Part shown: positions 11,922-26,415 of the stretch, piece after piece | Layout: each line of letters begins with the position of its first letter | Numbering within the stretch: the first letter of the stretch is position 1 | Source of the DNA: Acidimicrobiia bacterium | GTDB lineage: Bacteria; Actinomycetota; Acidimicrobiia; Spongiisociales; JAHEDJ01 | Assembly: GCA_029210695.1 (NCBI GenBank) | Contig: JARGFH010000037.1 | Span: forward strand, 1-37,447 | Direction: 5' to 3' | Length of the DNA stretch: 37,447 nucleotides | Made by a program: the position numbers and the translations under genes | The notes under the pieces: generated by a model | Databases searched by the model: none | What the model saw: the letters and a program-made list of their open reading frames with translations, nothing else | Told to the model about the DNA's origin: nothing

Positions 11922-14900
11922 ATGGATTCAGCACGTCCGATCACCGACTCAGCACTGTTCGACGGCCTCAATCCTGCACAGCGCGAGGGTGTGGCGGCTA
12001 CCGACGGCCCCGTCCTCGTGGTGGCGGGGGCCGGATCGGGCAAGACCAGGGTGCTCACTTATCGAATCGCCCACCTGATCCGTGACCTCGGCGTGTCTCC
12101 GCACGCGATCCTGGCTATCACGTTCACCAACAAAGCTGCCGACGAAATGAAACAACGGGTAGCCAGCCTCGTCGGGGGCGTTGCCGGGTCGATGTGGGTG
12201 TCGACGTTTCACAGTGCCTGCGTGCGCATTCTGCGACGTGAAGCCCACCGCCTGGGCTACAAGTCCGCCTTCTCGATCTACGACGCCGCCGATTCGCTGC
12301 GCTTGATCACGATGTGTGTGTCGGATCTCGACCTCGATCCGAAGCGGTTTCCGCCCAGGAGTATTCGGGCGGCGATCTCGAACGCCAAGAACGAGATGAT
12401 CGACTTCGAGACCTACCGCAGCCAGGATTCGGGCTTCTACCACGAGCAAGTGGCAGACGTCTACCGCCTCTATCAGCAACGCCTCCTCGAGGCATCGGCG
12501 ATGGACTTCGACGATCTCCTGATGATCACCGTCGAGTTACTCGGGGCATTTCCCGACGTGCTCGAGCAGTACCAGCGCCGGTTCCAGTATGTCCTGGTCG
12601 ACGAGTACCAGGACACCAACCACGCCCAGTACATGCTGGTCAAGCTGCTGACGGATTCGCATCACAACCTCTGTGTGGTGGGTGATCAGGACCAGTGTCT
12701 TCCTCCCGGTACTTCAATCAAGACCACCTCCGGCCACAAGCCGATTGAGGAGGTCAATGTGGGTGACGAGGTAGTTGGGGTGGCCGGCGACGGCAATCTA
12801 CACCCCGGCCGCGTATCGCACGTTCAGCCCGGGACCTACTCGGGGCCCGTTTACCGCATCGACGCCGGGGACTCAACGCTGGTTGGAACACCTCATCACC
12901 TGGTACCGGCCCGACTGGACCTGCCGCAGGACTCCCATGTCGTCTATCTCATGTATCGAGGCGATCGCGGCTTCCGGCTCGGTCTCACGAAAGCTTTCCG
13001 GTCGAACTCTCGAGGCCTGGCAGACCTAGGAGTGACCGTCCGCAGCAATCAGGAGCACGCGGACAAGGTGTGGATTCTGAAGGTCTGCCCGTCAAGGGCC
13101 GAGGCCGCATACTGGGAATCGCGATTGTCTGCTGAGTACGGAATCTTGACCGCCCGTTTCCACGGCGTTGGTCGGAATCTCGATATGGATGAACCATGGT
13201 TGAAGCGTCTCTATGACGAGGTGGACACCGTCAGCGCCGCCAAGTTCCTCATGGAAGACTTCAACTTGCACGCCGAGTTTCCTCACTACCGGCCGCAGAA
13301 CGGGCAGAGGCGCCAGAGTGTCAATTTGACGATGTTTTCAGATCGGCGAACGGGCGTTGGGTACCACCGCGTCCAGTGGTCATCGAACCGGTCCGATATC
13401 GCCGATCGTTTGCGTGAGGCGGGGTTCAATGTGAGGCCGGGCAAGTTCCCCGGTACATTTCGCGTCGAGACTTCGCGCAAGAGCTATTCAAAGGCGCTCG
13501 AACTGGCGAAGGGGATGACGCTGGCTGCTGATCTCGAGATTCAAAGGCGAGCCTCAATAGGAGGGGACATGTACTCCTATACGCCGCTGGCTCACCTTCG
13601 AGCGGGGATGAGGGTTCTCGTTGAGGCCGATGGGCGTTTCGTCGAGCGAGCCGTGGAGCAAGTCGAGGTTGAGGAGTACTCCGGCCCGGTCTATGACCTG
13701 CAGGTTGACCCGGTTCATCATTACGTGGCGAACGGAGTTCTGGTTCACAACTCGATCTACAAGTTCCGAGGCGCCGATATCCGCAATATTCTCGAATTTG
13801 AGAAGGACTATCCGGATGCCCGGATAGTGGTGCTCGACCGCAACTACCGGTCGACCGAGATAATCCTCGAAGCCGCCAACGCGGTGATCGACAACAACCT
13901 GCACCGCAAGCCGAAACGGTTGTGGACCGACCTGGGCCGGGGAGAGCTGATCACCCGCTACGAGGCCCAGGACGAACACGACGAGGCCGCCTTCGTCGCC
14001 GATCAGATCGAACTGCTCGACGATCAGGGTTATCACCGCCGCGACATCGCCATCTTCTACCGCACGAACGCGCAGAGCCGGGTCCTCGAGGAGGTGTTCG
14101 TGCGGTACGGCATCCCCTACAACGTCGTCGGGGGAGTGAAGTTCTACGAGCGGCGTGAGGTTCGCGATGCGCTTGCCTACTTGCGGCTACTGGCCAACCG
14201 CACCGACGAGGTGGCGGCCAAGCGCGTGATCAACGTCCCGAAGCGGGGTATCGGACAATCGACGATTGCCCACATCGATCGGTTTACCCAGGATGGACGG
14301 ATCCCGTTCTACGACGGACTCCTTCGAATAGACGACATCGGGATGGTGGCGGCGCGTTCCGCGATCCGCGTGAAGGAGTTTGTCGGTCTAATTGATCGCC
14401 TCGAGGAGGCGGCGGCCGACGGTCCCCGGGCGGCAATCGACGCGGTGCTGGCGGAAACCGGCTACGTGGCCGAACTGGAAGCGGAGCGGTCGGTCGAGGC
14501 GCTCGGCCGGGTGGAGAATCTCCGGGAGCTTGCATCGGTGGCCGAGGAGTTCGAGGAGTCGATGGACGGCTCGATCATCGACGACGGACCGTGGGCGACG
14601 CTGGGTGGAATGCGGAAGCTCGAGTTGTTCCTCGAACAGGTGAGCCTGGTGACGGACATCGACGAACTCGACGACCAGGCCGAAGCGGTGACGCTGATGA
14701 CGCTGCATACGGCCAAGGGCCTCGAGTATCCGGTCATCTTCATCGTCGGCATGGAAGACGGGGTGTTTCCTCATTCACGTTCGCTCGGTGATCCCGAAGA
14801 ACTCGAAGAGGAGCGGCGTCTTTGCTACGTCGGCGTGACGAGAGCGGAGGAGAAGCTCTACGTGACGCACGCCTGGCAGCGGATGTTGTTCGGCAGTTCT

Positions 14901-15185
14901 AGTTTCAACGCCCCGAGCAGATTCTTGGGAGAGATCCCAGAAGATCTGGTGACCATGGCGCCGAAGCGAACCCGTCGGAGCCAGGAGATCGCTTCGCCTT
15001 CACCGGGCGCAACCGTTTCCGCCGACGAGATCGGCGTCGGCGATCGGGTGCTGCACGGCAAGTGGGGCGCCGGCGTGGTGGAGGAGATCACCGGCACCGG
15101 CGACCGGGCAGAAGCCTGGGTGGTCTTCGACGAGAGCGGCCGCAAACGGTTGCTGCTGGCATGGGCGCCTCTTTCCAAGGCATAG
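11922..15185 (+). CDS. pcrA: UvrD/PcrA ATP-dependent DNA helicase containing an intein
   Basis: A superfamily 1A 3'-5' helicase for repair and replication-transcription conflicts. Motifs: N-terminal Q motif (LNPAQREGV), Walker A AGAGSGKT, motif Ia TFTNKAADEMKQR, motif II DEYQDTN (D227, E228), motif III VGDQDQ/SIYKFRGA split by the intein, LDRNYRS (IV), TLMTLHTAKGLEYPVIF (V) and LCYVGVTRAEEKLY (VI). The C-terminal region ends in a Tudor-like segment (VGDRVLHGKWGAGVVEE), as in PcrA. The precursor is 1087 aa; removing 352 intein residues leaves 735 aa, a normal PcrA size. The stop codon lies within a perfect hairpin (15168-15198). Confidence 0.95.
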   Translation: MDSARPITDSALFDGLNPAQREGVAATDGPVLVVAGAGSGKTRVLTYRIAHLIRDLGVSPHAILAITFTNKAADEMKQRVASLVGGVAGSMWVSTFHSACVRILRREAHRLGYKSAFSIYDAADSLRLITMCVSDLDLDPKRFPPRSIRAAISNAKNEMIDFETYRSQDSGFYHEQVADVYRLYQQRLLEASAMDFDDLLMITVELLGAFPDVLEQYQRRFQYVLVDEYQDTNHAQYMLVKLLTDSHHNLCVVGDQDQCLPPGTSIKTTSGHKPIEEVNVGDEVVGVAGDGNLHPGRVSHVQPGTYSGPVYRIDAGDSTLVGTPHHLVPARLDLPQDSHVVYLMYRGDRGFRLGLTKAFRSNSRGLADLGVTVRSNQEHADKVWILKVCPSRAEAAYWESRLSAEYGILTARFHGVGRNLDMDEPWLKRLYDEVDTVSAAKFLMEDFNLHAEFPHYRPQNGQRRQSVNLTMFSDRRTGVGYHRVQWSSNRSDIADRLREAGFNVRPGKFPGTFRVETSRKSYSKALELAKGMTLAADLEIQRRASIGGDMYSYTPLAHLRAGMRVLVEADGRFVERAVEQVEVEEYSGPVYDLQVDPVHHYVANGVLVHNSIYKFRGADIRNILEFEKDYPDARIVVLDRNYRSTEIILEAANAVIDNNLHRKPKRLWTDLGRGELITRYEAQDEHDEAAFVADQIELLDDQGYHRRDIAIFYRTNAQSRVLEEVFVRYGIPYNVVGGVKFYERREVRDALAYLRLLANRTDEVAAKRVINVPKRGIGQSTIAHIDRFTQDGRIPFYDGLLRIDDIGMVAARSAIRVKEFVGLIDRLEEAAADGPRAAIDAVLAETGYVAELEAERSVEALGRVENLRELASVAEEFEESMDGSIIDDGPWATLGGMRKLELFLEQVSLVTDIDELDDQAEAVTLMTLHTAKGLEYPVIFIVGMEDGVFPHSRSLGDPEELEEERRLCYVGVTRAEEKLYVTHAWQRMLFGSSSFNAPSRFLGEIPEDLVTMAPKRTRRSQEIASPSPGATVSADEIGVGDRVLHGKWGAGVVEEITGTGDRAEAWVVFDESGRKRLLLAWAPLSKA
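12696..13751 (+). other. In-frame intein (352 aa) in helicase motif III
   Basis: The insert starts with Cys (CLPPGTSI, block A) directly after VVGDQDQ and ends in VLVHN, followed by Ser +1. Block B is GTPHHLV and block F is YSGPVYDLQV...HHYVANG, so the splicing residues (Cys1, block-B His, His-Asn end, Ser+1) are intact and splicing should work. The central part (about intein residues 75-280) has no recognisable LAGLIDADG motif. It holds VVYLMYRG...FRLGLTK and WILKVCPSRAEAAYWESRL, reminiscent of a GIY-YIG or other compact homing-nuclease domain, then a segment with regular polar strands. The insertion site is the highly conserved ATP-contacting DQDQ/SIY, a known hotspot in UvrD-like helicases. 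Confidence 0.93.
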
Positions 15186-15638: not shown

Positions 15639-15755
15639 TTGACCTGCGCCGCTCTGCGTTGCGGGTTCGAGACCGGTGTAGGCGAGAGCATGAAGTGGAG
15701 AGCCTGCGGGCTCGACGAGTTGCCCGGTCGGAGAAAGGCAGGGGCACGCGGAGAA

Positions 15756-15783
15756 GGGGCGGGCTCCCCCTGGAACCCGCCCC
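15756..15783 (-). terminator. GGGGCGGG hairpin after the 65-codon frame
   Basis: GGGGCGGG pairs with CCCGCCCC. On the minus strand it follows the TAG of the weak frame 15800-15997 by about 16 nt, the same stop-to-hairpin spacing as after the secreted-protein gene at 16372. Confidence 0.45.
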
Positions 15784-15799
15784 TCGTGTCTGGCGCCGC

Positions 15800-15997
15800 C
15801 TAGTGGGTCAGCGGATGTCTCCAGCGGCGGTGGCCGGCTCGTTGGCGGTGCCGTTTGATGAGCCGGTGGAGCCTCGCTTCCAACCGTGGACCGAATCGGG
15901 TCAGTTTGAGTGGACTCCCTCTATCGCGGCGAAGATTCTCAGCCGCTTGCAGTCGGACCTCTTGTATTGCTCTTGCTCCCCGGTAATCGGGCAACAT
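15800..15997 (-). CDS. Doubtful 65-aa basic frame in the orphan unit
   Basis: An ATG frame preceded by GGGGGG encodes an Arg-rich product with no recognisable family. A 24-codon frame overlaps it out of phase. It is kept only because it lies between the orphan promoter (16226-16258) and a terminator-type hairpin on the same strand. A non-coding role of the transcript is equally likely. Confidence 0.15.
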   Translation of the reverse strand: MLPDYRGARAIQEVRLQAAENLRRDRGSPLKLTRFGPRLEARLHRLIKRHRQRAGHRRWRHPLTH

Positions 15998-16225
15998 ACG
16001 GACCCCCCTTCATCTTTCCCTTCTCTACTCCTATGTCGCAGTGTGCAGGATGCGCCTAACAAGCCGCTCACTAAACAAACGCTCGAGGCCGTCATGTTTA
16101 TGACAGGCTTCCATGGGTTCTCCCGAGGTGTTCCCGGGCGCCGGAGCCTGGAAGGGCGCCTAAATCTCCGGCCTTCCGGGTGTCGTTCGTTGTTTCGTCA
16201 TCTCGGCCCGATCTCTTCTTCCCCC

Positions 16226-16258
16226 TTAACACGTCTGAGCGATGTCCGACGGAGTACC
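16226..16258 (-). promoter_or_regulatory. Orphan copy of the sigma-cassette promoter motif
   Basis: On the minus strand: GGTACTCC (plus coordinates 16251-16258), 17 nt, CGTGTTAA (16226-16233). The spacing is identical to the promoters before all three sigma genes, and the -10 part equals that of cassette C. No sigma gene follows. It reads away from cassette A into the gene-poor stretch. Confidence 0.6.
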
Positions 16259-16323
16259 TGATTCCGAGGATTCGTTAGAAGCCTTTCCGCGCGCCGGGAG
16301 AACTTTCGCAAAACGGGATTGGG

Positions 16324-16371: not shown

Positions 16372-16956
16372 CTAGGGCGTGGTCGCCTGCGGTGGTGACA
16401 GCGTGATTTCGACCGTGGTGCCCTTCTTGGCGCGGAAGTCCACTCGCAGGTGGAGTGGCTTGCCATTCGAGTCGTCTCGCATATCGAAATCACCATCTTG
16501 CGGATAGCACCAATGACCGGCATCCCAGGTCCAGTAGGTCTGGTTTGAGTACCAGGAGAACGGGTCGGTCATCTCGCTGTAAGCCAGGTCGAAGGACGCT
16601 GTGTAGGAAGGACCCGTGTGGCCCTCCCAGTCCTGCTCGAGCACGCAGATGTCTCCGGGCGAATCATCAAGGACGAACACAATCACCCTGGAGATCGGGC
16701 CTTCGACAGGTTCCCTCGAGATCGGGTCGACAGCTTTGACGGTGACGGTGCCAACCCCTGTATCGCTCTCCGCCGGTGTCCAGAGGCATTCGAATCTGAT
16801 GGTGCCCGTGCCACTGAGAGAGATCTCACCGTCCGCGGTGATCGCGCATTCCCGCACTGCGGCCGGTTCTTGAGGCGGTTTCCCCTTCCCTGCGGCTGGT
16901 GCCGCCAGGGCGACGAGCACCGCTAGGGCAGTGACCAGGATCAGACTCTTCCTCAT
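16372..16956 (-). CDS. Cassette A: secreted Cys-containing protein (194 aa)
   Basis: I recognise no family. A Sec signal peptide (MRKSLILVTALAVLVALAAPAAG) precedes a mature domain with four Cys, in the contexts ECAI, FECLWTPA, GDICVL and HWCYPQD. They are conserved in the cassette B protein and probably form disulfides outside the cell. Other shared blocks are SYTASFDLAY, NGKPLHL and KKGTTVEI. AGGAG stands 4 nt before the ATG. The gene is third in the cassette, 149 bp after the propeller gene, and is followed by a strong hairpin. It could be the ligand, partner or product of the sensor system; this is inference. Confidence 0.8.
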   Translation of the reverse strand: MRKSLILVTALAVLVALAAPAAGKGKPPQEPAAVRECAITADGEISLSGTGTIRFECLWTPAESDTGVGTVTVKAVDPISREPVEGPISRVIVFVLDDSPGDICVLEQDWEGHTGPSYTASFDLAYSEMTDPFSWYSNQTYWTWDAGHWCYPQDGDFDMRDDSNGKPLHLRVDFRAKKGTTVEITLSPPQATTP

Positions 16957-17105
16957 GACGCTCCTTTCGCTCCCCTAACCAGATACCGCACAGCGGTTTG
17001 GCGCTGCTTGGGCCCGGGGCGGATAGGAGATCTAGTCCTACCCCCGTCGGGAGCCTCCTCAAGTCTCCACCTCTTGCCGATAGCTGCTTCATGCCTTCCC
17101 CCTCC

Positions 17106-18506
17106 CTAGTCGGTCCACTCGCCGATCCAGACGGCCGGCGCCCCGAATCCGACCCGGCCCACGGCGACGATGCGACCTTCCACCAGAGCAACGTCGCGGA
17201 TGGCCCCAGATTCATCCTCGAGATACCTCATACCGAAGACGTCCTGGTTCTTCTCTTTCGTCCACGTCTGTCCGCCGTCGCTAGAGGTGCTCACGAAGCC
17301 CTGGTTCTTCTCGCCGACGGCCACGGCCAGGTCGCCGTCGACGGCAATCCCGGATAGGTACGAGCCGATGTTGGTATCGACCTGATAGATCTTCTCCGCC
17401 TCGACGCTGACGTCGACGGCTCGCCATACTCCAAGTTGTCCCACCGCTAGGTAGGCATAGCCCACGTTGGCGACGTCGAGCAACGGTGCCGGGCGCCACC
17501 AGCCGTCGCCTTGCTCGACCGGCATGTCGACCCACTCGATTCCGTCGATCGAGCGATACATCCCCTCCCGCCCACTGGGGTCGAGTCCTGCTGCCACGAA
17601 CTGAGTACCGTCGAAGATGATCGAGAAGAGCGTGCCGCCCGGCGACGGTGATCGCTCCCAGGTGAGCCCGTCCGCGGAGCGCCACACGGCGTCACCGACC
17701 GCCACGAACTGGTCGGGCGAGGCGGCCACCGCCCACATCCGTAGTACGACGTCGTCGCCGCCGAACACGGCCCCGTCATGAGGTACTCGTGTCCAAATCG
17801 CACCGTCGCCAGAGGACCAGACCACGGCGACCGGAGAGGCATCCAACCAGGCCGAGCTGTTCCAGCGGTCGAGCCCTGCGAAGTACATGTCCCCCGCCGC
17901 TCCTGTGCCTTCGAATCCCACCGCCACCGTTCTCTCACCTAGCGAGGCGAATCCAACGACCTCTGCGAAAGTTCCGTCTGACGAGTCGCCAGACTCCTCA
18001 CCTGCCGGAGTGATCGTCGCCCGTTCCCAGGCGGACCCGTCGTCGGACCTCCAGATCGCCGCGTCCCGTCCGTCGAAACCGCCGGCTAAGAAACCATCCT
18101 CAGCGGCAGCGATGGTGTCGAGCGCTGCCTCGGCGGATGTAGCGGCCAGTTCCATGCGGGTCCATGTGATCGATGGAACCGGCTCGGCCGGCACGGCGGC
18201 GGCCGTGGTCGGGGTCGGCGGTGTGGTGTTCTCCGGCGGGGAAGTGACTGAGGTGACCGGAACCGTCGTCGGTGCAACTTCCTCGACGAATGGTGCTTCG
18301 TCGTCCCCGAGGGGGGCCAGCAGTGCTGTTAGACCGATAACGAGCGCCAGCGCGGCAGCCGCGCCCAGTGAAATGGCGAGGTTTCGTTGAGTCGGTGACG
18401 CCTGGCGCCGCCGGGTGACCCGTTCGTCCAGGTCGGGACCTACGATCGCATCCCGATAGCTGTGGAGGCTTTCGGCAGCGTCGCTCAGCATCTGATCGAT
18501 GGTCAT
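17106..18506 (-). CDS. Cassette A: membrane-anchored Asp-box beta-propeller, possible anti-sigma (466 aa)
   Basis: The N-terminal part of about 42 residues is charged and presumably cytoplasmic (MTIDQMLSDAAESL...). One transmembrane helix (43-65) is followed by ALLAPLGDDEAPFVEE, a Thr/Pro-rich spacer (to about 112) and a large outside domain. That domain carries repeated Asp-box / BNR motifs SxDGxxW (SDDGSAWER, SGDGAIWTR, SADGLTWER, SIDGIEW, SSDGGQTWTK), which indicates a sialidase-like beta-propeller; sialidase activity is not implied. The ATG overlaps the sigma stop (ATGA). Position and topology suggest a transmembrane anti-sigma sensor, but the N-terminus has no HxxxCxxC zinc motif, so the anti-sigma role is inferred. 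Confidence 0.85.
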   Translation of the reverse strand: MTIDQMLSDAAESLHSYRDAIVGPDLDERVTRRRQASPTQRNLAISLGAAAALALVIGLTALLAPLGDDEAPFVEEVAPTTVPVTSVTSPPENTTPPTPTTAAAVPAEPVPSITWTRMELAATSAEAALDTIAAAEDGFLAGGFDGRDAAIWRSDDGSAWERATITPAGEESGDSSDGTFAEVVGFASLGERTVAVGFEGTGAAGDMYFAGLDRWNSSAWLDASPVAVVWSSGDGAIWTRVPHDGAVFGGDDVVLRMWAVAASPDQFVAVGDAVWRSADGLTWERSPSPGGTLFSIIFDGTQFVAAGLDPSGREGMYRSIDGIEWVDMPVEQGDGWWRPAPLLDVANVGYAYLAVGQLGVWRAVDVSVEAEKIYQVDTNIGSYLSGIAVDGDLAVAVGEKNQGFVSTSSDGGQTWTKEKNQDVFGMRYLEDESGAIRDVALVEGRIVAVGRVGFGAPAVWIGEWTD

Positions 18507-19036
18507 TCCGTCACCTCATCATTGACTCGAAGGTACGTGGCCAGCGTCTGCTTGCCTCGCTGAAGATGGGTCTTGGCCGTGAATGGTGAACACTGCAGGA
18601 TCTCCCCGATATCTGACAGGCTGTGACCCTCGAGGTAGGTGAGGGCGATGACCTGCGCCTGGCGTTTCGGTAGGCGGCGTACGGCGGCCCAGATCTCCGC
18701 CGCTTCGGCTGCCACCTCTGGTGGTGTGTCGCCGGTCGGCCGGCGCCACAGGCGGGGGAGTGCTCTGCGTTCGACCTGCGTCCGGCGGTACCGCGACACC
18801 GCTTTGTTGGCAACGACCCGGCGGATCCAGGCTCCGGGTGCCGGGTATGTTCCGACTTCCGCCCAGTTCTGGCGGGCGGCAATGAAAGAGTCCTGGGCGA
18901 GATCCTCACCAATCCACCGGTCACCGGTGAGGGCATAGGCGAGTTCCGCAATCCTCGGGTATTCCCGAGCGTAGAAGGCAGCGAACGATGTTTCGCTCTG
19001 GTATTCGCCCCTCGGCGGAGAATGGGTTTCTGCCAC
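18503..19036 (-). CDS. Cassette A: SigE-family ECF sigma factor (177 aa)
   Basis: Sigma-70 region 2 (FAAFYAREYPRIAELAYALTGD, EDLAQDSFIAA, IRRVVANKAVSRYRR) and region 4 (VRRLPKRQAQVIALTYLEG, LSDIGEILQCSPFTAKTHLQRGK) with nothing else, so an ECF (group 4) factor. The start is GTG 19036, preceded by GGGGAAG. An earlier GTG at 19060 lies 3 nt from the TTAA of the probable -10 box and would be outside the transcript. It is first in the cassette and closely similar to the cassette B sigma; the region 4 DNA is nearly identical over about 60 bp. It probably recognises its own promoter at 19064-19096. Confidence 0.9.
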   Translation of the reverse strand: MAETHSPPRGEYQSETSFAAFYAREYPRIAELAYALTGDRWIGEDLAQDSFIAARQNWAEVGTYPAPGAWIRRVVANKAVSRYRRTQVERRALPRLWRRPTGDTPPEVAAEAAEIWAAVRRLPKRQAQVIALTYLEGHSLSDIGEILQCSPFTAKTHLQRGKQTLATYLRVNDEVTE

Positions 19037-19063
19037 TGCCTTCCCCAATCCGGCTCTCACCCA

Positions 19064-19096
19064 TTAATACGCTTTGAGAGACCGAGTTGGAGTACA
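19064..19096 (-). promoter_or_regulatory. Cassette A promoter motif
   Basis: Minus strand: TGTACTCC (19089-19096), 17 nt, CGTATTAA (19064-19071). CCTTGTACTCCA is identical to the cassette B copy over 12 bases. The CGT core of the -10 part is usual for ECF-type promoters. Confidence 0.7.
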
Positions 19097-19113
19097 AGGC
19101 CGCGGTCCTTTTC

Positions 19114-19238
19114 CCGTTCTTGCGTGGAGTGCTCTCGCAGACCGGGACGTTCCCACCACGATAAGGATTGCGCCGTTTCTCTCCTTTGCTCGTGCGTGGG
19201 TCGCTCCCGTGTATCGGGAGGAGCTAACGCAAGAACGG
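19114..19238. repeat. 12-bp inverted repeat CCGTTCTTGCGT / ACGCAAGAACGG
   Basis: Exact reverse complements at 19114-19125 and 19227-19238 between cassettes A and B. The inner copy lies about 17 bp upstream of the cassette A promoter. The outer copy is part of the conserved box after the secreted-protein genes (also at 22346-22366 and 16295-16314). Confidence 0.6.
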
Positions 19239-19243
19239 ATTGG

Positions 19244-19278
19244 AGGGTGGGCAGGGTCCCCCTTTCCCTGCCCCACCT
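19244..19278 (-). terminator. Terminator hairpin of cassette B
   Basis: AGGGTGGGCAGGG pairs with CCCTGCCCCACCT apart from small bulges. It lies 18 nt after the stop of the secreted-protein gene. GCTCTGTCTAGGG between hairpin and stop is shared with cassette A. Confidence 0.5.
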
Positions 19279-19296
19279 AGTGGTCCGGTGCTCTGT

Positions 19297-20031
19297 CTAG
19301 GGGCTAGTTGGTGGCGACATGACCTGCGGCGGGTCCAGGACAATGTCGACCATCGTTCCCTTCTTGATCCGGAAGTTCACCTGCAGGTGCAAAGGCTTCC
19401 CGTTCGGGTCGGCCCGCATTCCCTTGATCGGATCCTGCGGATAGCACCAGTGTTGGCCGCCGAGGCTCCAGTAGGTCTCGTTCTCGTAAGGCGCGTAATC
19501 CGGGTAGATGTCGTCGGGATCCCAGTCGGCATCCCTCGGCAGGTATCCGTAGGCGAGGTCGAAGGTTGCCGTGTAGCTCGCACCGGTCTGGTCGGCCCAC
19601 TCCTGTTTCAGCACACAGATGTCGCCGGGCGACGCATCACGAACGAACACCACCAGGTTCGAGATGGCGCCGCCAAGGGGCGTGACCGTCACCGTGCCAA
19701 TCTCAGTCTCGCTCGGCGCCGGCGTCCAGAGGCATTCGAACCTGGTCGCGCCTGAACCGTTGATGCCAGATAGCACGTCTGTTGTGCAGGCTTGTACTTC
19801 GGAAGGCTGGGGCGCCGTTGTCGTCGTGCTGGAGCAACTGGGGTGATCAGGTCTGTAGTCGGGCGATTCTGGATTGCAGAAATCCGGGGGAGCGGCTGCC
19901 GCGACGGCTGCGAGCGTCAGCACCAACGCTAATACCAGCACCATTCCCGTGGTGAATCGCCATCTGCTTCCTATATCTGAGACCCTGACGGGCTTTGCCT
20001 TGTGCGGTTCTTTGGCTGATGCGTGTTTCAT
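19297..20031 (-). CDS. Cassette B: secreted Cys-containing protein (244 aa), paralogue of cassette A
   Basis: Same family as the 194-aa protein of cassette A: FECLWTPAPSETEIGTVTV, SPGDICVLKQEW, SYTATFDLAYG, HWCYPQD, NGKPLHLQVNFRIKKGT and PPQ near the end, with the same four Cys in order plus extra Cys near the N-terminus. It has a long basic n-region (about 28 residues) before the hydrophobic core (MVLVLALVLTLAAVAAAA), so the signal peptide may be a retained anchor; an internal ATG at 19944 is an alternative start. GGAGA lies 4 nt before the chosen ATG, which is 9 nt from the propeller stop. A Ser/Thr-rich spacer follows the signal. Confidence 0.8.
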   Translation of the reverse strand: MKHASAKEPHKAKPVRVSDIGSRWRFTTGMVLVLALVLTLAAVAAAAPPDFCNPESPDYRPDHPSCSSTTTTAPQPSEVQACTTDVLSGINGSGATRFECLWTPAPSETEIGTVTVTPLGGAISNLVVFVRDASPGDICVLKQEWADQTGASYTATFDLAYGYLPRDADWDPDDIYPDYAPYENETYWSLGGQHWCYPQDPIKGMRADPNGKPLHLQVNFRIKKGTMVDIVLDPPQVMSPPTSP

Positions 20032-20040
20032 GAATTCTCC

Positions 20041-21663
20041 CTAGTTCGATGTGTTTCCGATCCAGACGGCGGCATCGCTTCCGCTGTATCCCACAGCCAG
20101 CAGGCGGCCCCCGCCGGCATCGATAACGTCGGTCATGGCTGTTTCTACGAGTAACTGGCCAACCACCAGGTCATGTTCGAAGTGCCACTCCGAGTTGATG
20201 GAGGACACGAACGCGGTGTCTCGATCCCAACCAACGGCCACAACCCCGCTCTCGGTCTCGAGGAGCGCCTTCACCGGGTCGTGTTTGAGGTTGGCAGTGT
20301 TGAAGAACACCTTTGGCTGGGCTCGAGCAAAGGGCGCTGTGTCGTCCCAAACCCGGGTCCAAGCCAGACCGTTGTCCGAAGTCCAGAGGGCCATTCGGGT
20401 TGGTGAAGTACCTGCGGCGATGAGGCCCGTCTCGGTGGTCGTCACCGTCCAGATGAAGTACGGCTCGGACTCGGCGAGATCGTCGCTTTGCTCGATCAGG
20501 CCGCCAAACACCGATGGGTCACTGGGGAGTCGTGTCCATTCGTATCCGTCCTCAGACACCCATACGGCTCCCCGCATGATTCCTTCTCCGGTTTCAGCTT
20601 GGTTGAGGTCGGTCCCGACAGCTATGAATCGTTCGCCCGTGTATGTGACATCGTGCATCCATTTGCTTGATGGGCCCCCGAACACATCTTCGTCGTGAGC
20701 GATCCGTTGCCACTCGATCCCGTCCGTTGAGACCCATACCGCCGCATCGCTGTGAGCCGAGCCAACCGCCACGATCAACCCGTTGCCCACGGTGACGGCT
20801 TCCATCGCCTGGTCACCGGCATCAGGGGATGAACCGTCGCTTGGCCCGCTGAAGACTCCACTCGGATCGGCCACCCTATTCCAGGTCAATCCATCGGCAG
20901 ATGTCCAGACCGCGGCATCCAGGTCGTCGCGTCCATACTCCTGATCGAAGCCGTAGATGGCGGAGAACGCATCCGGTCGGAATTCCTGTTGCGATCTACG
21001 AAAACCAAAATATGCCTGGTCGACGATTCCAACGGCGACGAGACCGGGTCCGGCCTCCACAACGTCGATGATGTCCTGGCTGCCGGGCCCACCGAATACC
21101 GCTTCGTCATGTGGAACCCTGGACCAGTCTGTACCGTCTTCTGAGATCCACACTGCTGCATCCCAACCATCCTCCGGGGTTGGTTCGCATGGCCCGGCGC
21201 AGTCGGTGCCGACGGCGACGAACCGGGAATCGAAAGCAATGACCGACTCGATGTGTTGTGTACCCGTGGTTCCCAAGTCGCCATTTGTGTCGGATATCCG
21301 CTCCCAGTCGACCGTGGCCCAGCTGATGGCCGGTTCCGCCGTCGCGATTACAGCGGTGGTGACAGTTTCTACTTCGGGCTCTGCTGGGACTGACTGTTCG
21401 GGCGATGGGGAAGGAGCGGTCGTCGGAGCAGGCGCCGGCGTCGTCTCGTCCACGAATGGAGCCTCTTCTCCGCCGAGAGGTGCGAGGAGCGCGGCTAGTC
21501 CGATGATGATCACCAGCGCGGCCGCCGCTGCCATGGCAAGGGCCCAACCTCTGCGCCTCGGAGCCAACCGGCGACGATCAGGTTCGAGGACAGGGACCCG
21601 GAGAGTTGATCCGAAATCATGCATCTCGTCGACGGCCGGACGAAGTCGTTGATCGAGCGTCAT
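20041..21663 (-). CDS. Cassette B: membrane-anchored Asp-box beta-propeller, possible anti-sigma (540 aa)
   Basis: Same plan as in cassette A: inside segment MTLDQRLRPAVDEM... (1-39), transmembrane helix (40-62), ALLAPLGGEEAPFVDE, Pro/Thr-rich spacer, then Asp-box repeats (SEDGTDWSR, SADGLTWNR, STDGIEWQR, SEDGYEWTR, SDNGLAWTR). It ends DAAVWIGNTSN, like the AVWIG ends of the other two. It is about 70 residues longer than its paralogues, with extra loops between blades. The start ATG 21663 overlaps the sigma stop (ATGA); a 9-codon upstream extension inside sigma is rejected. An anti-sigma role is likely by position but has no recognisable zinc-binding anti-sigma domain. Confidence 0.85.
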   Translation of the reverse strand: MTLDQRLRPAVDEMHDFGSTLRVPVLEPDRRRLAPRRRGWALAMAAAAALVIIIGLAALLAPLGGEEAPFVDETTPAPAPTTAPSPSPEQSVPAEPEVETVTTAVIATAEPAISWATVDWERISDTNGDLGTTGTQHIESVIAFDSRFVAVGTDCAGPCEPTPEDGWDAAVWISEDGTDWSRVPHDEAVFGGPGSQDIIDVVEAGPGLVAVGIVDQAYFGFRRSQQEFRPDAFSAIYGFDQEYGRDDLDAAVWTSADGLTWNRVADPSGVFSGPSDGSSPDAGDQAMEAVTVGNGLIVAVGSAHSDAAVWVSTDGIEWQRIAHDEDVFGGPSSKWMHDVTYTGERFIAVGTDLNQAETGEGIMRGAVWVSEDGYEWTRLPSDPSVFGGLIEQSDDLAESEPYFIWTVTTTETGLIAAGTSPTRMALWTSDNGLAWTRVWDDTAPFARAQPKVFFNTANLKHDPVKALLETESGVVAVGWDRDTAFVSSINSEWHFEHDLVVGQLLVETAMTDVIDAGGGRLLAVGYSGSDAAVWIGNTSN

Positions 21664-22190
21664 GACGTCCCCCCTTCTGTTCCCAGGCACTCGGCAAGAG
21701 TTGCCCTACCTCGCTGCAGGTGGGTCTTCACCGTGAAGGGTGAGCATTCAAGTATTTCGCCGATCTGCTGGATTGATAGGTCTTCTAGATAGGTGAGGGC
21801 GATGACCTGTGCCTGGCGCTTCGGGAGGCGGCGGACCGCCGCCCATACCTCGACAGACTCCGCCGAAAGTTGCGGGGGAGGTGCCGGTGCCTTGTGTTGC
21901 AGTCGGAGAAGAGCGCGGCTTTCCGCTCCGGTTCGGCGGAGTCTCGACACCGACTTGTTGGCGACCACCCTGCGCACCCAGGCGGCGGGAGAGTCGTACC
22001 CCGAGATCTTCTGCCAGTCACGCTGAGCGGCAATGAACGCATCCTGGGCAAGATCCTCGGCAGCCCACCGGTCGCCGGTCAAGGCACAGGCAAACTCGAC
22101 GACGGGCCGGTACTCCCGTTCATAGAACTCCGCGAACGGCGCCGCTTCGAGCGTTCGTATCTCCTGTGAGGCTTCGGCCTCGCGTCCCAT
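21660..22190 (-). CDS. Cassette B: SigE-family ECF sigma factor (176 aa)
   Basis: Region 2 (FAEFYEREYRPVVEFACALTGD, EDLAQDAFIAA, VRRVVANKSVSRLRR) and region 4 (VRRLPKRQAQVIALTYLED, IQQIGEILECSPFTVKTHLQRGR). The start is ATG 22190, with GGAGG 6 nt upstream; a GTG two codons earlier is less well placed. It is closest to the cassette A sigma. The leader from the -10 box is very short, so the Shine-Dalgarno is almost at the 5' end. Confidence 0.9.
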   Translation of the reverse strand: MGREAEASQEIRTLEAAPFAEFYEREYRPVVEFACALTGDRWAAEDLAQDAFIAAQRDWQKISGYDSPAAWVRRVVANKSVSRLRRTGAESRALLRLQHKAPAPPPQLSAESVEVWAAVRRLPKRQAQVIALTYLEDLSIQQIGEILECSPFTVKTHLQRGRATLAECLGTEGGTS

Positions 22191-22205
22191 CTGCACCCTC
22201 CACCC

Positions 22206-22238
22206 TTAACTCGCACCAGAGGCCGATGCTGGAGTACA
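22206..22238 (-). promoter_or_regulatory. Cassette B promoter motif
   Basis: Minus strand: TGTACTCC (22231-22238), 17 nt, CGAGTTAA (22206-22213). The spacing equals that in cassettes A and C and in the orphan copy. Confidence 0.7.
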
Positions 22239-22345
22239 AGGTTGTTCCATGGTGGACGGAGCGGCCTACCGGGCACAGGGTCCAACGGCCCCAATCGCGC
22301 CCATTCCCCATAACCACCTCCGGGGTCACGCCCGTCGCGCACTCC

Positions 22346-22366
22346 GGGAGGAACTCACGCAAGAAC
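22346..22366. repeat. Conserved box after the cassette C secreted gene
   Basis: CGGGAGGAACTCACGCAAGAAC-type box. It matches 19216-19236 (cassette B) and more weakly 16295-16314 (cassette A), each on the 3' side of the secreted-protein gene. Its function is unknown; it may belong to terminators or be a trace of the duplication. Confidence 0.5.
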
Positions 22367-22385
22367 AAGCAAGGGTGAGGTGGGG

Positions 22386-22985
22386 TCAGCCCGCCGGAGT
22401 GATTGTGGCGGTGAGAGTTCCCTCGGAGCTTCCAACCGGAATCCAGTCGTTGACGATCTCCTTGCCCTCCTTGGTGAAGAGAGTCACCGAGAAGGTTCCG
22501 GTTCCATAGGACTTCAGCGAGAACATCTCGAGCACCTCTTGAACAGGTCGCCCGTTCTTGGGATTGACCCCGAACTGCCAGTAGTAGTCGAACAGGAGGT
22601 TCACCAACGTGACCTCTCCGTCTCCGTCGACCTCGAGGATGAGCGTCCCGCCGAACGAGCCGTCGGGCACGTACGGGCCGATTCCGTGGCAGCCGCTGAA
22701 CGCAGCGGCCGATGCACCCCATCCGGCGTCGTAGTCGCGCTCCCATGGGACAGCGAGGTTCACTCCGACGACTACTTCGGGCGATAGGCCAGCTGACAAA
22801 GTGCCTGGAACCGTACCGGTCATGGGGATGGTGCCCTCCGTGGCGCACGTGGTGTTGAGAACTCCGCTCAGTTCGACCTCGAACCGATCCGGATTGCCCA
22901 GCGGTTTGCCCCCCTTGGCGGCCATCGCCGGCGTCGCGGCCAGCAGCATCATCAGCACCAGTGCGATCATCGCTATGCGTTTCAT
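22386..22985 (-). CDS. Cassette C: secreted protein of a different family (199 aa)
   Basis: A Sec signal peptide (MKRIAMIALVLMMLLAATPAMA) precedes a mature region with two Cys (TTCATEG and SGCHGIG) and many beta-prone Gly/Thr stretches (GTIPMTGTVPGTLSAG, GTLILEVDGDGEVTLV). The FECLWTP, GDICVL and WCYPQD blocks of the cassette A/B proteins are absent, so this is not an obvious paralogue although it holds the same position. GGAG precedes the ATG, which is 9 nt after the propeller stop. I do not recognise a family. Confidence 0.75.
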   Translation of the reverse strand: MKRIAMIALVLMMLLAATPAMAAKGGKPLGNPDRFEVELSGVLNTTCATEGTIPMTGTVPGTLSAGLSPEVVVGVNLAVPWERDYDAGWGASAAAFSGCHGIGPYVPDGSFGGTLILEVDGDGEVTLVNLLFDYYWQFGVNPKNGRPVQEVLEMFSLKSYGTGTFSVTLFTKEGKEIVNDWIPVGSSEGTLTATITPAG

Positions 22986-22994
22986 ATCCGTCTC

Positions 22995-24410
22995 CTAGTA
23001 ATCCGTCGGGGTGCCGACCCATACCGCGGCGTCGCCGTTGCCCTCGAGGAGGCCTCGCTGGGCAAGGTTGTTGCCGAAACTGCCGCCGACGATTATGTGG
23101 TCTTCGAACTTCACGATTGAGAACGCTTCCGACTGGCGGGACTCCGATCTGGGGTTGCCGAACACGTCCTGATCCTCCCGTACCGTCCATGTGAACCCGC
23201 CGTCGGTCGATTCCCAGACGGTGGCGGCCGTTGCTAGGTATGCCTCTCGCGCACCTACGGCGACGATCGTGTCGTCGACGGCAATGATGTCGTGGACCTG
23301 GTCGGCTGCATACCCGTCGTTCTCTTCGTAGCCGCCCCTGAAGGTCCAGGTGAAGCCGTCCGTGGAGAACCAAACGAGTCGGCGGGATCCGGAACCCAGG
23401 GCGAAGTATCCATCTCCTGTCTCCGCCATGGCAGCGAACCTCCCCTGGAAGCTGGGTGCCGTCTCGACCCCGGCGGACTTCCAGTTCGTGCCGTCGGTCG
23501 AATACCAGGCGGCTTCTCGATACGCCCACTCATCATCGGGGCCGACGGCCCCGACTGCCAGGATGGCGGTTCCTGTGGCGATTGCATCGGAGACATACGA
23601 TCCCGGTACATTTGCCCGTGTCCACGAGCCTCCGTCGGGCGATGTCCAGATCGCCTCGCCAACGGCGAGGAAACCGGTAGGCGTGGCGATGATCCGTGCA
23701 TCGGACCGTAGGGGGCCCGACCCCAGGCGGAACGCGTCGCCGTCGTCGGGGACCCTGGCCCACGTCGATCCATAGTCGTCGCTGTACCAGAACGCCATGA
23801 CCTTCACGGCCGGGTCGATTTTGACATGCGATTCCCCAGGACGGTGCAGGACGTCGATTCCGATCGCGACCAGGCGCCCATTTCCTTCGGCGATGTCGAG
23901 GAGCCATCGCCGGGAGTCCTCGCCGTACGGGCTCTGTTCAGAACCGAAGGCGTCCGTTGCGTCATTGACGCGATGCCAGTCGAGACCGTCCTCCGACGCC
24001 CACACCGCAGGTGAGTATCGATCTTCACCAACCGCGATCAGTCCCGAGGACACGCCGCGAATCGAATAGATCTCCTGGTTCCCTTCACCGCCGAGGTCGG
24101 GGTCGGCGACACGAGTCCATGCGTATGGGGATCCGGCCGGGCTAGCCGGGGTTGTGCCGGGCGAAGTCGAGCCAGTCGGAGCGACGATGCCCGGCTCGTC
24201 GGCCACCGGAGCGTCGGGGCCGAACGGTGCAATAAGGGCGATGGCGATCAGGGATACGAGGCAGACGGCCGCGGTGGCGGCCGCGACGGCGAGTCTGTTC
24301 AGCCTCCGAGGAAGTCTCTCGAGGCCCGGTTTGGGGACGGCAAAGGCCGATCGGACGTGACGGTTGAGGTCCGAGGCGGCGGATTGCAGACGTTGCTCGA
24401 GCTTGGTCAT
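22995..24410 (-). CDS. Cassette C: membrane-anchored Asp-box beta-propeller, possible anti-sigma (471 aa)
   Basis: Inside segment MTKLEQRLQSAASDLNRHV... (1-38), transmembrane helix (39-62), ALIAPFGPDAPVADE, short Thr/Pro spacer, then Asp-box repeats (SEDGLDWHR, SDDYGSTWAR, SPDGGSWTR, STDGTNWKS, STDGFTWTF, STDGGFTWTV). It ends AAVWVGTPTDY. The ATG at 24410 overlaps the sigma stop (ATGA); a 61-codon extension is rejected because it runs inside the sigma gene. It is more diverged than the A/B pair but keeps the plan and the MT.LEQRL-type N-terminus, which may be the sigma-binding part. Confidence 0.85.
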   Translation of the reverse strand: MTKLEQRLQSAASDLNRHVRSAFAVPKPGLERLPRRLNRLAVAAATAAVCLVSLIAIALIAPFGPDAPVADEPGIVAPTGSTSPGTTPASPAGSPYAWTRVADPDLGGEGNQEIYSIRGVSSGLIAVGEDRYSPAVWASEDGLDWHRVNDATDAFGSEQSPYGEDSRRWLLDIAEGNGRLVAIGIDVLHRPGESHVKIDPAVKVMAFWYSDDYGSTWARVPDDGDAFRLGSGPLRSDARIIATPTGFLAVGEAIWTSPDGGSWTRANVPGSYVSDAIATGTAILAVGAVGPDDEWAYREAAWYSTDGTNWKSAGVETAPSFQGRFAAMAETGDGYFALGSGSRRLVWFSTDGFTWTFRGGYEENDGYAADQVHDIIAVDDTIVAVGAREAYLATAATVWESTDGGFTWTVREDQDVFGNPRSESRQSEAFSIVKFEDHIIVGGSFGNNLAQRGLLEGNGDAAVWVGTPTDY

Positions 24411-24949
24411 GCTTCCTCCTCGACGAGTTGCAGCTTCTGAGCGAGCGATTGTTTGGCTCTCTGGAGATGGGTCTTGGCGGTAGTGCCTCGGCAGCCGAGT
24501 ATTTCGGCGACCTCGGGAATCGTGTACCCCTCGAGATAAGTCAGCGCAACGACCTGGGCTTGCCGCCTGGGAAGTGACCGAACGGCCTCCCACAGTTCGA
24601 CTGTCTCGGCACTCAGTGCATTGCCGCGCTCACCGCGAGGCTCGGCGGCGAGACGGATCACCGCGTTCGTTTCAGAGTGGCGGCGCCGGATCCGTGAAAT
24701 CGATCGGTTGGTGACCACCCGCCGAAGCCAGGCATGCGGGGCGTCGTACTGTGCAATGCGATCCCAGCGTTTCTGTGCGGTGATGAAGGCTTCCTGGGTG
24801 ATGTCCTCGGCAGCAGCTCGGTCCCCGGTGATCGCGAACGCCAGTGCAACCGCCGGGTGATACTGCGAGCGATAGAACTCACCGAACGATTCGACCTCAG
24901 CCGATGCCCTCACTGTTATCCCCACATCGACGCCTTCGAAGGATGTCAT
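24407..24949 (-). CDS. Cassette C: SigE-family ECF sigma factor (180 aa)
   Basis: Region 2 (FGEFYRSQYHPAVALAFAITGD, EDITQEAFITA, LRRVVTNRSISRIRR) and region 4 (VRSLPRRQAQVVALTYLEGYTIPEVAEIL, TTAKTHLQRAK). The ATG at 24949 is 6 nt after TTAA of the promoter, compatible with a leaderless transcript. The GTG at 24913, preceded by GGGGA and aligning with the cassette A start, is a real alternative (168 aa). It is more distant from A and B than they are from each other. Confidence 0.88.
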   Translation of the reverse strand: MTSFEGVDVGITVRASAEVESFGEFYRSQYHPAVALAFAITGDRAAAEDITQEAFITAQKRWDRIAQYDAPHAWLRRVVTNRSISRIRRRHSETNAVIRLAAEPRGERGNALSAETVELWEAVRSLPRRQAQVVALTYLEGYTIPEVAEILGCRGTTAKTHLQRAKQSLAQKLQLVEEEA

Positions 24950-24955
24950 CACCAG

Positions 24956-24988
24956 TTAACACGCCCGAACGCCCTGAAGAGGAGGACA
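24956..24988 (-). promoter_or_regulatory. Cassette C promoter motif
   Basis: Minus strand: TGTCCTCC (24981-24988), 17 nt, CGTGTTAA (24956-24963). One base differs from A and B in the -35 part; the spacing is the same. Confidence 0.65.
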
Positions 24989-25037
24989 GCGTCCCGCTGC
25001 GTGCAGCACGGAAGTTGGCGGTCCCGCATCACACCGG

Positions 25038-25181
25038 CAAACCTGCCCCCCTCCCCGAGAAGACTCGGGACTCCCCCCACTTCGTGGTGGGAGAACGGGG
25101 TATACGACGTGGTCTCGTATCGAACGAGGGTTGGCTTTTGCGTTTCTCCCTCGCGGAGCGGGGGAGATGCTGAGTCTTCGA
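25038..25181. repeat. Palindromic repeat element, copy 2 (about 144 bp)
   Basis: Same orientation as copy 1 at 15279-15414. GACTCGGGACTCCCCCCACT and the following TCGTGGTGGGAGAA are identical in both, as are GCGTTTCTCCC and GCGGAGCGGGGGAGATGCTG with AGTCTTCGA. Only the centre differs in sequence and length. It lies between the cassette C promoter and the transaldolase gene and encodes nothing. Confidence 0.75.
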
Positions 25182-25224
25182 AGCAGAGGGGACCCCGGCG
25201 ACGGTCCGCCTGGTGGTAGTCGCG

Positions 25225-26339: not shown

Positions 26340-26415
26340 AGTTCTGAGTTCTGAGTTCTGAGTTCTGGGTTGTCGCGGGGCCAATTGCCAATCGCCAATT
26401 GCCAAACGTCAATTG
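26340..26415. repeat. Heptamer repeat tract 4: AGTTCTG x4 then CCAATTG x5
   Basis: 26340-26367 holds four exact AGTTCTG units, followed by the variant GGTTGTC (to 26374). 26381-26415 holds CCAATTG, CCAATCG, CCAATTG, CCAAACG, TCAATTG. Two unrelated 7-base units lie side by side between divergent promoters. AGTTCTG is the reverse complement of the CTCAGAA type at 31292. Confidence 0.85.

Follow-up and report, generated by a model that had tools for sequence, protein, structure and literature searches.

Candidate signalling cassettes of sigma factors, membrane Asp-box propeller proteins and exported proteins in an Acidimicrobiia bacterium

Why should a bacterium set the gene for an extracytoplasmic function (ECF) sigma factor, three times in succession, beside genes for a membrane-bound Asp-box propeller protein and an exported protein? 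The question is raised by a contig of an Acidimicrobiia bacterium (JARGFH010000037.1, assembly GCA_029210695.1), the whole 37,447-nucleotide stretch of which is referred to here as the window. Nine genes on its minus strand, from 16372 to 24989, form three cassettes, each running in the order ECF sigma factor, membrane Asp-box propeller, exported protein. Each cassette is probably a self-contained signalling unit, in which the propeller protein would serve as the anti-sigma factor and the exported protein would be the main output. What can be read directly from the sequences is the gene order and its recurrence, a covariation between sigma factor and cytoplasmic tail, natural swaps of the propeller, and a promoter-like motif.

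The cytoplasmic tail and its sigma factor

A first-pass annotation of the locus described the propeller proteins as single-pass membrane proteins, and each indeed has one hydrophobic segment, beginning at residue 42-45. The cytoplasmic tail ahead of it measures 41-44 residues in the window and 35-75 residues across the set of proteins compared. Tail similarity tracks sigma similarity: among 24 non-redundant pairs the Mantel correlation is r=0.39 (p=0.0005), and r=0.49 when the first 36 residues are taken. Propeller similarity, for the same 24 pairs, does not covary with sigma similarity (r=0.04). That the propeller measure carries a signal is shown by a control comparison, in which its two halves agree with one another (r=0.52). 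These and the other statistics given below are drawn from modest numbers of related sequences, which are not fully independent.

Two related genomes carry what appear to be natural mosaics of receptor parts. The first, G002, harbors two cassettes with propellers ~83% identical and tails ~30% identical, accompanied by sigma factors that belong to different classes and share 47 of 152 aligned residues. The break in identity falls at the linker, and the shared DNA block stops just past the propeller stop codon, with the secreted gene outside it. The second, G003, matches cassette 1 at ~94% identity over promoter, sigma, tail and linker and at ~74% over the propeller. Synonymous divergence (dS) between the two is 0.10-0.13 for sigma, tail and linker and 0.74 for the propeller, the housekeeping genes of both genomes lying at 0.72-0.98; the sigma half therefore looks recently exchanged, on a propeller with background divergence. 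These comparisons support the view that the tail goes with the sigma factor and not with the propeller, and the sequence evidence thereby supports a role for the propeller protein as a sigma regulator.

The kind of anti-sigma segment that such a tail may represent can be narrowed. The absence of a zinc-binding anti-sigma motif, noted in the first-pass annotation, extends to the relatives, as none of 26 tails contains a cysteine and the Hx3Cx2C motif is missing; a zinc-type anti-sigma factor is accordingly rejected. Non-zinc anti-sigma factors are common, making up ~44% of class I (PMC7406223). The class I anti-sigma domain (ASDI) is some 100 residues long with four helices, and the published set excludes domains of less than 50 residues, which may be class II members (PMC7406223). 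An ASDI is rejected for the present tails because they are too short and have one predicted helix (residues 3-21) ahead of the membrane helix, and scans with Pfam and NCBIfam found no known anti-sigma domain in the tail. The class II pair CnrH/CnrY, compared here by description, may be similar in its short anti-sigma domain outside class I, the two helices of which wrap the sigma factor (PMC7406223). The tail fits a CnrY-like domain in length, and the AlphaFold2 model of propeller protein 1 (mean predicted local distance difference test score, pLDDT, of 72) has helix 3-21, then a helix at 38-63 that enters the membrane, followed by an all-beta propeller. CnrY is not known to carry a large propeller.

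Composition and recurrence of the cassettes

The three sigma factors are sigma 1 (18503..19060, minus strand, 185 residues, GTG start), sigma 2 (21660..22196, minus strand, 178 residues) and sigma 3 (24407..24952, minus strand, 181 residues). All score above the Pfam cut-offs for Sigma70_r2 and Sigma70_r4_2. Their nearest NCBIfam family is the SigE family TIGR02983, whose cut-off of 141.55 bits is not reached (111.1, 133.5 and 130.1 bits, respectively); judged by these profiles, they are plain ECF proteins that lie closest to the SigE family but below its cut-off. Sigma 2 is 64% identical to sigma 1, and sigma 3 is 49-53% identical to the other two. The propellers share ~30% identity among cassettes, which, like the 49-64% of the sigma factors, is far above chance.

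Propeller protein 1 (17106..18506, minus strand, 466 residues) is divided into a cytoplasmic tail (~1-42), a transmembrane segment (~43-64), a linker (~65-112) and the Asp-box propeller itself (113-466). Propeller protein 2 (20041..21663, minus strand) has 540 residues if its start is taken as the ATG overlapping the sigma stop codon, and propeller protein 3 (22995..24410, minus strand) has 471. The first, second and third contain five, five and six Asp-box motifs. In every cassette the sigma stop and propeller start form an ATGA overlap (18503-18506, 21660-21663 and 24407-24410), and this type of translational coupling is also found in many relatives. Gene positions, strand and overlaps are all as the first-pass annotation gave them. 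The ALLAPLG and AVW(I/V)G motifs that it saw in the propeller proteins are real, and the common start motif, MT(I/L)DQxL, is present in cassettes 1 and 2 but off by one position in cassette 3 (MTKLEQRL).

No window propeller passes any Pfam family cut-off. The BNR/sialidase families come no closer than 12.5 bits for BNR_2, with propeller 1 only, against a cut-off of 31.4, and sialidase activity is rejected for want of a family match above cut-off. In Foldseek searches with propeller 1, the top hit by E-value was a GH74 xyloglucanase (3.5e-10), and Ycf48 propellers matched with template modelling scores (TM-scores, on the target) reaching 0.71 and E-values of about 1e-7 to 1e-9. These GH74-type and Ycf48 Asp-box propellers share the fold of the outside domain at a sequence identity of only ~13-17%.

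The third genes belong to two families, and window members of both lack any Pfam or NCBIfam match. Secreted protein 1 (sec1; 16372..16956, minus strand, 194 residues) and secreted or membrane-anchored protein 2 (sec2; 19297..20031, minus strand, 244 residues) are homologous, with 51% identity and an invariant PGDxC motif in the family alignment. Secreted protein 3 (sec3; 22386..22985, minus strand, 199 residues) represents a second family, without a BLAST match to the other two. The first-pass annotation assigned an exported protein to each unit, and all three do begin with a signal-peptide-like segment; sec2, however, may be a signal anchor, because a 29-residue N-terminal extension precedes that segment. 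An AlphaFold2 secreted-protein model was built from three sequences and reached a pLDDT of 51; it is mostly beta, and Foldseek returned no match to it below an E-value of 1e-3. Given this low confidence and the lack of a match, the fold claim stops at "mostly beta".

As sec3 is unrelated to sec1 and sec2, the locus is not a clean triplication of all three genes. Duplication in place, as proposed in the first-pass annotation, could plausibly account for cassettes 1 and 2, in which all three genes are homologous, but sits poorly with the different secreted protein of cassette 3. A sigma tree, in which the three window sigma factors are not each other's exclusive closest relatives, also counts against it.

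The three-gene order is kept in other genera and families, as a search of related genomes, the check proposed with the first-pass annotation, has established. Most of the genomes compared are fragmented assemblies, in which several cassette contigs stop inside the cluster, and simple rules served to call gene starts and signal peptides. A propeller match was found in 57 of 99 related genomes, many of the matches being lipoproteins without a sigma factor. Propellers that adjoin a sigma gene occur in several families of the order, with a sigma overlap mostly of 1-14 bases. By a crude signal-peptide rule, an exported gene lies within 300 bases downstream of 21 of 26 sigma-paired propellers and of 3 of the 34 that lack a sigma partner (Fisher p=1.5e-8). 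Lipoproteins of other kinds take the third place in some pairs.

The sec1/sec2 family is confined to this order in a class-wide search of 395 genomes. Each of its 16 strong matches (E<1e-10) comes immediately after a membrane propeller gene; a sigma gene is visible for 14 of them, the others being G030:C111, at a contig edge, and G000:C12. The weaker matches are not all linked: G104:C204 has no adjoining propeller, and G109:C327 is on a short contig. G000:C12 (L043:6474-8701) belongs to the window's own genome, where propeller and secreted gene are retained, no sigma was found and the propeller N-terminus is apparently disrupted; it is apparently a fourth, decayed cassette. Relatives of sec3 are few (G003, G096 and G104). 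Those in G096 and G104 follow a sigma-receptor pair, and the G003 contig ends too early for such a pair to be visible. The G104 example (L205:2609-5373) consists of a sigma gene, a window-type tail on a receptor whose repeats resemble, by eye, FG-GAP repeats and not Asp-box repeats, and then the sec3 relative; a different type of propeller may possibly fill the receptor's place here.

Some further observations concern the surroundings of the cassettes. Near the transaldolase gene, the stretches 25141-25191 and 26377-26415 recur many times in related genomes and are probably small intergenic repeats. Beside the transaldolase gene of G002, as in the window, there is a cassette with another sigma class (G002:C11, L182:1-730), so the site looks like a cassette hotspot. 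A UvrD-type helicase at 11922-15185 of the window shows weak similarity to an intein splicing domain over residues 531-610, below the family cut-off. The source genome contains seven genes of the WhiB family, which in a control set is detected in Corynebacterium alone, and an actinobacterial origin is thus very probable.

Described systems with a similar layout

The first-pass annotation knew of no described system of this kind. For the architecture this does not hold, as Tt-TolB of Thermoanaerobacter tengcongensis is the nearest precedent among characterised systems (PMC3397946). Tt-TolB has 645 residues, with a 39-residue N-terminus, a transmembrane segment at 39-61 and, outside, a large portion with a TolB-like annotation (PMC3397946). 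Its N-terminus binds the sigma factor Tt-RpoE1 in a two-hybrid assay, the protein inhibits the sigma factor in vitro, and Tt-RpoE1 is autoregulated, transcribing its own gene (PMC3397946). As in the window, the sigma gene is directly followed by one that encodes a membrane protein of short inside part, single transmembrane segment and large outside part; the window cassettes, as read from sequence, display this layout in their ATGA overlap, a transmembrane segment from residue 42-45 and an outside propeller. In contrast, the two further genes downstream of the Tt-RpoE1/Tt-TolB pair are oppositely oriented, and the account describes no exported third gene linked to the pair (PMC3397946). The pair also differs in its TolB-type annotation, where the window proteins have Asp-box repeats, and in a 2-bp intergenic gap in place of the overlap. 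T. tengcongensis is from a different phylum.

The SigI/RsgI systems of cellulolytic clostridia were compared through a portion of their published account (PMC6056542). According to that portion, a genome may hold several paralogous, autoregulated pairs of sigma and membrane anti-sigma factor, and RsgI resembles the propeller proteins in that it is an anti-sigma factor built of three parts, one of them a sensory module on the outside (PMC6056542). SigI differs in that a distinct C-terminal domain replaces sigma-4, and RsgI in the type of its sensory modules, among them carbohydrate-binding ones; the same portion mentions no linked exported third gene (PMC6056542). A search covering part of the literature found no description of sigma/Asp-box propeller cassettes or of a linked exported gene.

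The promoter-like motif, the proposed circuit and its alternatives

The stretches ahead of the three sigma genes have in common, near the start codon, the motif TTGTMCTCC-N17-CGWRTTAA. On the minus strand it reads TTGTACTCC-N17-CGTATTAA before sigma 1 (19064..19097, with the same site in G003), TTGTACTCC-N17-CGAGTTAA before sigma 2 (22206..22239) and CTGTCCTCC-N17-CGTGTTAA before sigma 3 (24956..24989, with the same site in G001). A fourth copy, AGGTACTCC-N17-CGTGTTAA (16226..16259, minus strand), lies downstream of secreted protein 1 and is conserved in G003. With up to two mismatches allowed, the 3.9-Mb genome contains four sites, all at this locus, against one for a reversed control pattern; with up to three, the window contains four, against 0.19 expected from shuffles. 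The orthologous sites in G001 and G003 are perfect matches. That the genome has only these four sites, all at the locus, suggests a self-contained, autoregulated circuit.

Beyond the fourth copy lies a conserved region (15691..16225, minus strand), 86% identical in G003, that may encode an RNA or a small reading frame. A known RNA is rejected, since Rfam gave no match to the region and its folding energy is ordinary (z -0.02). The best candidate gene of the region is a 65-residue frame at 15800-15997, with a weak coding signal and a plausible ribosome site.

From these features we infer binding, a direction of signalling, autoregulation, a cue and a function for the exported protein, as follows. 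Through its short cytoplasmic tail, acting as an anti-sigma factor, the propeller protein would hold the ECF sigma factor at the membrane. On sensing a cue, the outside propeller would cause release of the sigma factor, either through a conformational change or because the receptor is cleaved stepwise by proteases. Once free, the sigma factor would transcribe its own operon from the motif, yielding more receptor and more exported protein, and it may also act at the fourth site as a second target. The receptor would be modular, with sigma factor, promoter, tail and membrane helix moving together and the propeller exchangeable. So few motif sites in the genome make the exported protein the likeliest main output.

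Several points weigh against this account. The tail segment adjoins the sigma gene, and linkage contributes to, and could alone cause, their co-inheritance. Five of the 26 sigma-paired propellers were obtained through the secreted-protein search, and without them the count of exported genes becomes 16 of 21. One of the positives (L147) is probably a false call, window cassette 2 is a paired case that the crude rule missed, and at least three sigma-propeller pairs (L041b, L044 and L045) have no evident exported gene. Finally, the motif pattern derives from a comparison of the sites at the sigma genes, those of G001 among them, so that independent support comes only from the fourth site and the orthologous sites, with the fourth site as the cleanest evidence.

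The exported protein might instead be the propeller's ligand or co-sensor within the same circuit, reporting its own accumulation, damage or the presence of kin, and so serve in feedback or cell-cell recognition. Beta-propellers commonly bind proteins, the exported gene is tightly linked to that of the receptor, and two secreted families with no relation to each other are found in this position. Secreted-protein similarity, however, does not track propeller similarity, although the comparison has low power (r=0.07, p=0.25, n=12). The near-identical propellers of G002 precede clearly different secreted proteins, the shared DNA ending after the propeller gene, and the lipoproteins of other kinds in the third place of some pairs also speak against it. 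A role as ligand is therefore rather unlikely, and one as output is favoured. Somewhat less likely again is a broader version, a lineage-specific, modular sense-and-secrete platform with recombined propeller heads (Asp-box, and another repeat type in one relative) and a near-self regulon, in which the exported protein would be the receptor's ligand in a positive-feedback or kin-recognition circuit.

It is improbable that the propeller protein is a cargo or adhesin co-expressed with a sigma factor that is itself controlled transcriptionally. Such a protein would explain a tail that lacks a known anti-sigma domain and is shorter than those of class I, but not the covariation of tail and sigma factor or the swaps at the linker, and both the Tt-TolB precedent and the translational coupling of the two genes argue against it. 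There is very little to commend the view that the third genes are passengers, which the operon structure retains and which contribute nothing to the circuit: they do vary in kind and are missing from some pairs, but every strong match of one secreted family holds this position across families of the order, and exported genes follow paired propellers far more often than unpaired ones (21 of 26 against 3 of 34).

In comparison with Tt-RpoE1/Tt-TolB, what is new is the different propeller type, the linked exported third gene and the swappable ectodomains. If the proposed circuit is correct, sigma/anti-sigma signalling would gain a variant that packs sensor, switch and exported product into one small cassette, and two secreted protein families would acquire their first functional context. 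The natural swaps of the outside domain mark off the portion of the receptor that belongs with the sigma factor, and the swapped pairs would provide ready material for studies of ECF receptor specificity and for orthogonal surface sensors.

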